Source: Sipunculus nudus
Lineage: Eukaryota; Annelida; Sipuncula; Golfingiida; Sipunculidae
Direction of reading: 5' to 3'
Length of the DNA: 64,000 nt
NCBI GenBank assembly: GCA_026874595.1
Contig: CM049317.1
Span: 59,166,118-59,230,117 of the forward strand
Shown one piece after another: positions 40,101 through 49,100 of the stretch. Position 1 is the stretch's first letter. Every line of letters starts with the position of its first letter. Position numbers and translations under genes: made by a program. Under the pieces are notes generated by a model. The model did not search any database. It was given only the letters and a program-made list of their open reading frames with translations, and was not told the DNA's origin.

Positions 40101-43100
40101 ATCAATAACATGTTACTTTCTCATTGCAGATTCCGGATCTCGAAAAAGACTTGCTTGCCCTCGACAACCCAAAACCTCAAGATATAGGCCACGTTATTGA
40201 CAGCTATCAGAAAAAGGTGAGCAAAATATATTCACATAGTGTGTGTGGACATGGATTATTATGCATAGTTGCAGGAAGAATCTAACTTTTTATTTCATTG
40301 ATGTTAATTAACATTTGTGTTTTATATTTTTTTTTATATTACTAAAATCTTGGATGAGTTTGAAACCTCATGACCCTGACAAGGTCAGATCTTTCACTGT
40401 GTCTTCATTGATATAACCTATATGCAAATGGGGGCTGGGGGGAGACATCTGGTTTTGCGAGTGGGAAACAAGTCATTCTAGTTTTAATTTCTTTATCAAG
40501 TGATTAAACCAAACACACCTAGTTTATTCTTAAAGCTGGCTGTACACCGACTCTCTCTATAGAATTAAAAAAAAAATATACTTTTTTCTGGTATTAATGC
40601 TTTTGTATACTTTTTTTACCTCTGCTGACTGAAAGCAATCTGAGCTATAGCGATCACTCTTTGTCTGTCTTCCATCTGTCTGTCCTTCTGTTAACAGGGC
40701 ACAAATCATAACAGCTGGACCTGGAACCTTCTAACTGAACACCCATGGAGGTCCAAAAAAAATCTTCTATTGGAAGTCCTTTAAATACTAGCAGTATGAA
40801 AAAGAAACAGAACTTTCAAAATATACTTGGAAACTCAAACGCTATATATAAATATATAAAGATATATATATATATATATATATAGATATATATATAGATA
40901 TATATAGATATATATAGATATATATATATATATATATATATATATATATATATATATATATATATATATATATATATATATACACATTGGATTCAAGTGG
41001 CTTCCAACTGAACACTGAATAGGAGAGAGGTTGGACGCTCAGTTGTGAATATATATATATAAACACTTAAAGAGCATATCTATTATATTTATAAACACTT
41101 AAAGAGCATATCTATTATATATATATACACTTAAAGAGCATATCTGTTATATATATAAACACTTAAAGAGCATATCTATTATTTTTTTAAACACTTAAAG
41201 AGCATATTTATTATATATATAAACACTTAAAGAGCATATCTATTATTTATAAACAATTAAAGAGCATATCTATTATATATATATATATATATATATATAT
41301 ATATATATATATATATATATAAATATATATATATATATATATATATATATATATATATATATATATATATATATATATATATATATATATATATATAATA
41401 GATATGCTCTTTTAAGTGTTTCATTATTGGGACATTTTATTGAGCACAAGTTGGGTTGAAAAAAGTAATCAAAAATATGAAATACTGAGGGTTCGTGTGC
41501 ATAAATTCTGAAGAACTGCAAATATTGAACCTGTTGCTTGTCTGGAAGCATCACATACAGTAAAACTGTGCAAATTGTTTCAGTCTTTTGCAGTGATTTG
41601 TAGTTTTTTATGCTTTTTTGACAGTTCTGTATTATAATCTTGCAAGATTTTATACCCTCTATTTAATCCATTAAATCAGTGATTGATTCTTTTCTTTCAT
41701 AGTCAGTTAAGTTTGATGCATTTTTGGCAAAATCAATCAGATGATTGTGTACATACATTCAAAGAAGTCATTTTAACCAGAAAAAAATATCCTAACCAAG
41801 TAAGGGAATAAGAGAGATTGGACGCTCAGTTGTGAACAGCCTTAAAAGTGAATCTTGCTCAGCAAACAAGCATCAACGACTTGGCCATTGCCTTGACTCT
41901 TCTGTTTGACATACAGTTGAATTTACTGAAATTACTTGGTTATTATTTTGGGTATAATTCTATACAGCAAATTTCATGGTAATAAAGAATTTACATAAAA
42001 TTATTGATTAATAATTGATCATTGATTGTATGTTGGTTGTATGTTTTCTTTCAAATTGAACATGATTTTACAATCATTCCAAAGACTTATAATCAGATAT
42101 ATTTTTTATAAGCCCATCTGTGATGGGACATATCATGGTATACCCATGATCCATCCATTGTCTTTCAACTTATAGTGTCACAATAATAATCTACTATGGG
42201 TTTTACAGATTTCCACTAGACTCGCTATAATTTCATACCAATAGATATATTCACCCGAGGATGATTATAGGAAAATCCACACATATTTAATGAGGTCAGA
42301 GGTCACTAAGCTACATGGTGGTGTTGCCGCAATAACTTACCAGGAATATTATGGATTTTAATGAAACTCTATAAATATTAACCAATAGAGTTTCTCCCTG
42401 TAATTAAATCCCTGGCAAAGTTTACGCATATTAATGAGGTCAGAGGTCACAAGATAGATGATGGGTGTATTATGCACCCTTGCTCTGCTCGTTTCCTTTT
42501 AAAGAGTGCCTATGATAATAATAATAATAATTTATTTTATAAAGCGTAAAATCCATGATGATACATGCTCTAAAACGCGATTACATAACTAGAATACAAT
42601 CAGCAATCATTAAACATACTATTGTAAGAATATGAAATTAAAGTCCAGTTGACTAAAATATTACATTCAGAAGCTTACAGTATTAAATAAGACATATAAA
42701 AGTCAATAGTTCGATTATCTGTTAAAACTTCCATAATTCCACTAAAATTTTCAAACATTTCACTATCAATAGTACAAAATATCGTACAAAATGACTAGAC
42801 ATAAAAATATTCCATGAACAAATATGTTTTTAATTTACCTTTAAATTCTGAGAGACTGGTGGCTTCTCTTAGAGTATCTTGTAGGTCATTCCACAGTTTC
42901 GGGCCAACAACACTGAATGCCCGATTTTGTATTCAAGACGATTTGGTAAAAGGCATGACCAGTAAGTTTTTAGCTGCTGACCAAAGGCTTCTTAATGGAA
43001 TATAACTGTGAATAAGCTCTTGCAGGTAAAGAGGAGCTAAATTATTTATTGCCTTATACACAAGAATTAACATTTTGAATTTTACCCTTTGCACAACTGG

Positions 43101-46100: not shown

Positions 46101-49100
46101 TAGTTTCAGCTTTTTACTCTGTATATATAATGATTGCAACTTTTGCAACAATTCTAATATTTTAACTTATATTTTCAGGTTTTTTTTATCAAAAATTGAT
46201 AAAACCTGTAAATAAAAAAATGATTCAGATAAAAACTTCTTAATGGAAAAAGTGGATATGCTTAAAAAAAAGGATCATATATAAACTTAAATGCATTATT
46301 CCCTTGAAAGTGAAATAAAGGTATGCATCCATTCTGTCCACTTGCCTGTCCATCTGTAAATTTTTATATGCATCACAGTTTCTAAAAAAATTTTACTGTT
46401 TTTCTTCATGACAGTCTTAACAGAGTATTAGTTTGCAATCATATATTTAGAACTTTACTATAACCAAGTAGGAGGGCCCCTTTCCTCTTAGCTTTTCATA
46501 TTCTTATATAAATGAAAAACATTACAATAGAATTTTTCTACATCCACCTTCGTGCTGCCCTCACTTTTCCCTTCTCCAAACCCCATCCCAAAGTCAGCCT
46601 CAGTAAGCAAGAACAAGATGAATCAGATATATTCATACTTTAATATTTTGTATAACTATTCATCCATAAGTACATATGTACATGCCAGAAATTATGTCAA
46701 TATTGTGTAATATGTAGACATAGTGGGCATCACAATAATGTACCTTGTCAAGACTAAAGAGATATTGTGTCATACAGTCACAAATTCATAAATCACTTCA
46801 ACAGCATAGTTAATCATAACATCATATCAGTCAAATTGAAAGCTTGCAGACTACCATACACTTTACGCTCCCGAGGCAGCGGAAATCTTGTGCTTCTAAA
46901 GAAGCAACTGATTTTCACGTTGCCAGCTTTGACCGTTTATGATATATTTAGACACCAGATGGCGGTTCGTTGTCCACTGAAATAAACGTGTGTATGATGT
47001 GACAAGCAGCCAATCAGATGCCAATAAACAAACACTCGACAGGCATCCTGGCTCCGCCCATTGCTGTGCTTCAAGCGCCGCTAGAGGAGTTTCCGGTCGA
47101 ATTTAAATTGCTCCCTCTGCAATCTCGCATCATCGACTGATTCGATTATGACATTATGACTGTGTTAGCGTAGCCATGTATCTGTTGTCTGCAGAACTGA
47201 AACCAGCCAGCAAGGTGTGCACGCAGCCTTTGTTGTTACGTTTCGTTTGAATAACAGCTCACCGGCCGAGCATCCTATGTGCCCAAGGCCCTAAGCAAAC
47301 CACGTCAGGGGCAATTCTCTCTGAGCCTGTGGCCTGTTCAGACGGTTACGCTGGGGGATGAGCTGTCACTCAAAAAGAAATGAATATGATTGGCTCCGTG
47401 TATTCCTCGCTTGGCTTTGTCTTCCAGCACAAAGTCTCATCTGATTGGACAAAAATACAGTGCTCCCCTCTGGTGTTGCAATTCAGGATACAAGGTCAAA
47501 ACAAACAGCGCCTTACGATATAGGTCGTAGCCCTATATGTAAAGCGCTGTGTAAAGAGCGTACATACACTTTAGATCCTTCAACAAATAGCCTTATCATC
47601 ATTCTACTACTGCTTATTACTGCTGTCATTGCATTCATATTTGCTTAAATATATCACAATTTTCAACCCCTCCTAAATAAATAAAGAATAAACCACTATA
47701 TTTGACTCTATTAATCCATCAGTCAGGTAATTTCATTTATCATTTACTCGCATTTACATTACATTCCTTTATAATAGCCCAACATGTCAATGATATTCAT
47801 AAGCTTTATTGACTCGATAAAGTATCACAGTGGAGAAACATTTTTAGTCCAATCATGATCAGCTGAGCGCCGTGACCCATGGGTCCCTTGTTTTTTTCTT
47901 TCAGAGTGCCTATGATACAATCAGATATTTTTTTTTCTTTCAGAGTGCCTATAATGCAATCAGATTTTTTTTCTTTCAGAGTGCCTATGATACAATCAGA
48001 TATTTTCTTTCTTTCAGAGTGTCTATGATAAAATCAGATATTTTCTTTCTTTCAGAGTGCCTATGATAAAATCAGATATTTTTTTTCTTTCAGAGTGCCT
48101 ATGATGAGAAGAAAGAGTTTATATTAGCCCCATACATGAACCAGATCCATGAATTATTTGAGGGAAATACTTTAGAAGAAGTATTCAGAAAACTGGAGCA
48201 AGATGGATCAGAATGGGCTCTCAAACAACTTAATACTTTAAAGAAAATGGTAAGTCCAAGCCATATTAATGCTCAAACTCTCCAGTGTTTTAGAGAAATG
48301 CTAAATTCATTTATATCTATTAATAAACCCATATCATTGAGTTTCTTAAAGTCTTCTACTGGCTTTTGTGGTCTAGCGATAGAGTGCATAATCCAGTAAA
48401 ATCTCTGCTAAAAAGGTGAAATTATTCATAGTTGGCCCATACAGGGTAATCACTGTGCAGGTTAAATGGGAAGGCAGTGCCCAATGGCCATGTTTCACCA
48501 AAAAATATTTGTGCATTGAAAGTATCATCCATACATCCAGGGCTCGCAGGTGCAGTAGTCGGAGGGCCTGGTAAACACCAGGTTGTAAAATGACAGGAAG
48601 CGTGTGACACTGCCCTGTTATGTTAGGGCCACTAATCCTGACTGATGCAAGCTTATTTACGGTTGTGTCCTCCAGTAACCAAACAGTTTTAGAAATGAAA
48701 TATTGGCAGACACCTTAATATTTTAAGCAGAACATCATATATTGCATGTTTATTTAATATGCCAGGTATTTATAAATTTATATGATTCTATTCATTTCAT
48801 TTGTAGTCTCCCACGTCTATGAAGGTTGCATTCCGGCAGCTGAAGGAGGGAGCTAAGCTGAGTCTACAGGATGACCTTGTAATGGAGTACAGGTGCAGTC
48901 AGAGGTTCACAGAGGATCACGATTTCTATGAAGGAGTACGAGCAGGTGTGAAGATTTTATATTTTTATCGATAAATTTTTTAAAGGTTACCTGTTCCACA
49001 CTAGAAATCTGCTTTCAAGAAATGCAAGCCTCTGCCAAGTTGGGGTCCCAATAATGGGAAGCTTCTGAAACATTGTTTGCATTCACATATTCGACCCATA

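Follow-up and report, generated by a model that had tools for sequence, protein, structure and literature searches.

In lancelets, the "mirage" minisatellites are tandem, minisatellite-like duplications of an intron-exon boundary in which many copies carry splice signals. They are described in Adh3, in the globin genes BflGb6 and BflGb9 and in troponin C, with a similar array in PGBD5 (PMC3087553, PMC3902484). In the excerpts of these reports, some of the arrays are on the acceptor side, their length is variable, the Adh3 array is somatically unstable and splicing is reportedly undisturbed. Human F7 has 37-bp repeats in intron 7. The 5' splice site is in the first repeat, and a review gives only this most upstream copy as normally used (PMC6627357). 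Here, we describe an array of junction copies in the HIBCH gene of Sipunculus nudus. The 64,000-nucleotide stretch analyzed (assembly GCA_026874595.1, contig CM049317.1, positions 59,166,118 to 59,230,117 of the forward strand) is called the window, and positions are counted from its first letter. The array is a true, in-place, junction-seeded minisatellite and a long, transposon-broken member of the mirage class, and it probably lies outside the lancelets.

Several features of the HIBCH array recall the mirage arrays as excerpted. BflGb6 is also an acceptor-side array, built from the 3' end of an intron and the 5' part of an exon, and the Adh3 units of 10-72 bp span a range that includes the 38 bp of HIBCH (PMC3087553, PMC3902484). 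Splice signals are likewise present in many copies and not in all, with the AG at its expected position in 22 of the 26 extra HIBCH copies. The HIBCH array differs in having 27 junctions, compared to the 6 and 3 repeat units given for two BflGb6 haplotypes, and in being broken by three insertions. It shares with F7 a nearly equal unit length and the fact that one copy is the real splice site. However, the F7 repeats are human, on the donor side and in 4-7 copies by the excerpted account, whereas the 27 HIBCH junctions are on the acceptor side and end downstream with the copy at which the exon really starts. The HIBCH unit holds a 3' splice site, and a 5' splice site of the F7 type was not found in it. 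The repeats at exon-intron boundaries of duplicated human genes are also of minisatellite size, but they are described as having ~30-bp units in ~4 repeats on average and as creating novel introns (PMC2812944); no new intron is evident in HIBCH. The Rogers model, in which introns are gained by tandem duplication of a splice-site-bearing sequence, is similar in that splice signals are duplicated in place (PMC3087553, in excerpt). In HIBCH, in contrast, the exon starts where that of a paralogue does and no new intron is evident.

A preliminary description of this DNA, made from its letters, knew of no described case in HIBCH. The open literature does not contradict this, since no report of such an array for HIBCH or for molluscs was among the matches listed in a search that left subscription papers mostly outside; the kind of array, however, is already described in lancelets. 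The HIBCH array suggests that boundary-spanning minisatellites are not limited to lancelets and humans, and it is relevant to models in which introns arise by tandem duplication.

Anatomy and origin of the array

HIBCH is encoded on the plus strand of the window, and the array lies in the ~7.9-kb intron between the exons at 40130-40216 and 48094-48249 (Table 1). The repeat unit has 38 bp, of which 26 bp are an intron tail ending in CAG and 12 bp are the first bases of the exon at 48094. Every unit straddles the intron-exon boundary in this way, and the outer ends of the array are in register with it. A unit-by-unit alignment gave the layout AGTGCCTATGAT (the exon's first 12 bp), A[A/C/T]AATCAGATAT, a T-rich tract and CTTTCAG, with unit lengths of 36-40 bp. 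Tandem Repeats Finder (TRF) reported the same 38-bp unit in 20.5 copies at 43199-43967 and in 5.7 copies at 47891-48105. Both methods agree with the preliminary description, which had seen a 38-bp unit carrying the exon head in about 20 copies and five more before 48094. Its total was about 25 copies. The alignment and a half-copy at the left edge give 27 junctions, one at 42505, 20 at 43229-43942 and six at 47905-48094, the last of which is the real one, leaving 26 extra copies. It had also placed a CAG in every unit, making each a plausible acceptor; this holds for the 22 extra copies that retain the AG, but four of the 26 have lost it. With at most one mismatch, AGTGCCTATGAT occurs 21 times in the window compared to 0.45 expected, and none of 100 shuffles had as many. 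A chance origin of the AGTGCCTATGAT matches, and of the ATAATCAGATATATTTTTT match at the left edge, is excluded.

The array begins at 42089 and not at 42489, where it had been placed at first, because the first unit is split by a dispersed element. Since the left flank of the half-copy at 42505 is that element, this half-copy was considered as a chance match; this was ruled out when its missing half was found at 42089, across the element. When the two insertions at 42108-42494 and 42517-43194 are set aside, the array is continuous, and its first unit starts in ordinary intron while its last runs into the exon. An array that starts with an intron tail and ends with an exon head is the pattern of in-place tandem duplication of a 38-bp segment straddling the acceptor. 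The join between the exon side and the intron side has one base (T) in common. The intron contains a CTTAT, which we take to be branch-site-like. It extends across the left edge of the first unit and for this reason was not copied whole. The real exon probably uses a branch site lying within a repeat unit, as we infer.

If the unit were a common satellite unconnected to HIBCH, copies should be present at other loci. The whole 1.43-Gb assembly was scanned with a 28-base core of the unit, allowing at most three mismatches, with a reversed control. All 20 matches were in the array and the control gave none, and a dispersed satellite was rejected at this threshold. No unit was detected at unrelated loci at this threshold, which also missed the more decayed units of the array itself, so strongly decayed copies elsewhere are possible. 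A DNA similarity search with the unit returned at least 13 matches, all within the array. It is most improbable that a satellite or transposon tail from elsewhere landed by chance at this exon. Tandem repeats are abundant in the window, with 55 TRF rows of which some overlap, and dispersed elements flank and split the array, as such a landing might leave it, but the unit is absent elsewhere at the scanned threshold, its 12-bp head is coding sequence of the exon, and its ends are in register. The proposal that the array was seeded from the HIBCH acceptor thus came through the genome-wide comparison and is strongly supported.

We consider it likely that tandem duplication expanded a 38-bp segment across the acceptor to at least 27 junctions, that the array was later broken by three insertions, and that the extra acceptors are by-passed or rarely used. 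The seed of 38 bp would have joined 26 bp of intron to 12 bp of one HIBCH exon across its acceptor, in a single-copy junction of the form ATAATCAGAT...CTTTCAG|AGTGCCTATGAT. Growth to at least 27 junctions would probably have gone through slippage or unequal exchange; we infer this mechanism as well as the order of expansion. With all duplicates on the intron side, the true exon start would have remained at the last copy. The three insertions would have followed.

Table 1. Positions of the HIBCH exons, the junction copies and the insertions in the window
Feature	Position	Strand	Remarks
Upstream HIBCH exon	40130..40216	+	Donor GTGAGC, phase 0 into next exon; tblastn with paralogue's exon, E 1.5e-4; both splice sites (acceptor, donor) present
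Left half of first unit, intron tail ATAATCAGATATATTTTTT	42089..42107	+	1 mismatch in 19 to unit; 0.03 matches expected in window
Dispersed element splitting first unit	42108..42494		Ends approximate, by eye from other copies
Right half of first unit, CCTTTTAAAG then exon head AGTGCCTATGAT at 42505	42495..42516	+	
Dispersed element (~678 bp) inside array	42517..43194		88-95% identity to 39 other copies among matches listed
Distal block, 20 junction copies	43199..43967	+	Exon heads 43229 to 43942; units 36-40 bp
Insert (~3.9 kb) splitting array	43968..47890		Both ends in dispersed repeats; comparison with genome covers end stretches only
Proximal block, 5 extra junction copies	47891..48093	+	Exon heads 47905, 47944, 47980, 48018, 48056; AG kept in all
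Real HIBCH exon (peptide begins SAYDEKK, ends LKKM)	48094..48249	+	Donor GTAAGT; start residue as in paralogue

Insertions and relative age

The gaps at ~42517-43194 and 43968-47890 each have dispersed repeats at both of their ends. For the element that splits the first unit, the left flank of 42505 gave 3193 first-look candidates in the genome, 40 of which were scored. Among the other matches, the top eleven share 77-82% identity with the right part of the element. The 678-bp element is flanked by a target duplication, TGATA, identified by eye. The minus-strand open reading frame (ORF) of this insert matched no Pfam family. A long interspersed element was considered for it from a general resemblance, and with no family in Pfam it is named only a dispersed element here. 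For the 3.9-kb insert, each end stretch is similar to 39 other copies among the matches listed, at 93-96% identity on the left and 96-97% on the right. This insert also contains a 68-bp duplication with TTTCAG (46048-46184), which looks unrelated to the 38-bp unit.

Differences between units were counted over the 24 complete units, with gaps as differences; the first unit, the partial unit at 43199, and the 43942 unit with its remainder before 47905 were left out. The mean difference between units is 16% (18% in the distal block and 8% in the proximal block). The ends of the 3.9-kb insert, in contrast, match other copies at 93-97%, which makes this insert probably younger than the array, a rough comparison in which repeat turnover can hide as well as exaggerate age. 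The 20 distal copies would probably have been ~3.9 kb nearer to the exon before the insertion. The element at 42108-42494 probably came after at least one duplication, because the duplicates do not contain it.

An assembly artefact is hardly credible as the source of the array. A single assembled haplotype is what the array is seen in, but units with a mean difference of 16% and three separate insertions would hardly result from collapse or stutter during assembly.

Coding consequences of the extra acceptors

Acceptors were scored with an approximate frequency matrix, so that only relative ranks are meaningful, and AGs of the array itself are among those ranked. By this measure, 20 of the 26 extra copies are in the top 2% of AGs in the window. 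The five proximal copies score 11.2-11.4, compared to 11.2 for the real site at 48094, 9.8 for the acceptor at 40130 and 6.3 for that at 35287.

When each copy was spliced from the upstream exon (phase 0) and read on to the donor at 48249, a stop was found in 26/26. The stop lies within the extension for 24 copies and in the frame-shifted exon for the other two (48018 and 48056). The lengths added by the copies at 47905, 47944 and 47980 would preserve the frame, yet these copies contain stops. Protein lengthening in frame through the exon's own donor is thus ruled out for all 26 copies, and with it the suggestion that the array could add residues before SAYDEKK. As long as no other donor comes into play, reduced output is the only effect that the arrangement can have. 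For the 21 copies past the large insert, the stop result is formal because the exon would be more than 4 kb long. Use of an extra acceptor followed by the exon's own donor would give a transcript with a premature stop, a possible target of nonsense-mediated decay.

Another possible explanation is that the array is a functional decoy. The proximal acceptors would compete with 48094, some transcripts would stop early and decay, and copy number would tune HIBCH output. This would fit with the proximal block, in which all five copies have the AG, score like the real site and lead to stops. For F7 intron 7, an excerpted review describes a correlation between repeat number and mRNA level (PMC3492156), and the human boundary repeats are described, in excerpt, as able to change splicing (PMC2812944). 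However, AG has been lost in four of the 26 copies and AG columns are no better kept than others. They are off consensus in 5/48 cells, compared to 27/456 in columns 1-20 after removal of the variable column 14 (Fisher p 0.21), and there was no sign among the complete units of selection keeping or removing AG. The array is also broken by insertions, and lancelet arrays reportedly leave splicing undisturbed in the excerpted accounts (PMC3087553, PMC3902484). We regard a functional decoy as unlikely.

Several observations weigh against an array that grew by tandem duplication and is now by-passed. With regard to use, the five proximal copies keep the AG, have scores like that of the real site and lie only 38-189 nt upstream of it, which makes competition plausible. 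In duplicated human genes, tandem repeats at exon-intron boundaries are described as generating alternative splicing via new introns (PMC2812944, in excerpt). With regard to growth, divergence drops only weakly toward the exon (Spearman rho -0.42, p 0.043), and neighboring units were not more alike among the complete units (Mantel r 0.009, p 0.46). For mirage arrays, concerted evolution in the interior and divergent copies at the edges are described; in HIBCH, the mean difference is smaller in the proximal than in the distal block (8% and 18%), and the leftmost unit is divergent by eye. Considering the duplicated array as a whole, the extra acceptors would probably be by-passed or rarely used; neutrality is most likely, and a damping of HIBCH is possible.

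With five near-identical acceptors at 38-189 nt before the true one, and another 21 past the insertion, the intron is a natural competition experiment. The copy chosen by the cell would reveal how an acceptor is selected where the sequence barely discriminates. It is distinctly improbable that junction-seeded minisatellites extend beyond lancelets and that, in addition, the proximal copies divert some HIBCH transcripts to decay in a copy-number-dependent manner.

Two local features of the distal block were seen. Consecutive units of 39, 39, 39, 36 and 39 bp at 43453-43645 leave one frame open (ORF 43390-43701), probably by chance. The unit at 43416-43452 has ATCAGGTATA for ATCAGATATA, which by eye gives a donor-like CAG|GTATAT 20 nt past its acceptor and a possible microexon.

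Gene context and other repeats in the window

The exon downstream of the array (48094-48249) is similar to 3-hydroxyisobutyryl-CoA hydrolase (3bpt_A, E 4.1e-9), and the joined peptides of the two exons flanking the array match PF16113 (E 5.4e-10). Several HIBCH-like fragments or paralogues, in both orientations, are present ~340 kb from the window gene on the same contig (C12:59547798-59587289). The counterpart exon of one paralogue is 46% identical over 37 residues and has the identical start residue (AG|AGC...), and no such array was seen in the intron before it. The 100 kb of the paralogue region that were read contained no second clear counterpart of the exon. With the paralogue as a control, the shared start residue and the lack of a preceding array there make it probable that the exon start at 48094 was inherited, judging from this comparison of sequences.

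Long stop-free ECH_2 ORFs are present on the small contigs C111, C113, C114, C120, C122 and C126. C120, the only one of these that was read, has a 384-aa ECH_2 ORF adjoining a transporter-like ORF. These small contigs look like bacterial contigs remaining in the assembly.

Elsewhere in the window, a 69-bp unit is repeated 30 times at 19898-21958 (91% matches), with long open stretches on both strands. The 537-aa open stretch at 15166-16779 presumably resembles a non-LTR (long terminal repeat) reverse transcriptase. A perfect 142-bp tandem duplication, with 100% matches, is found at 61742-62027.

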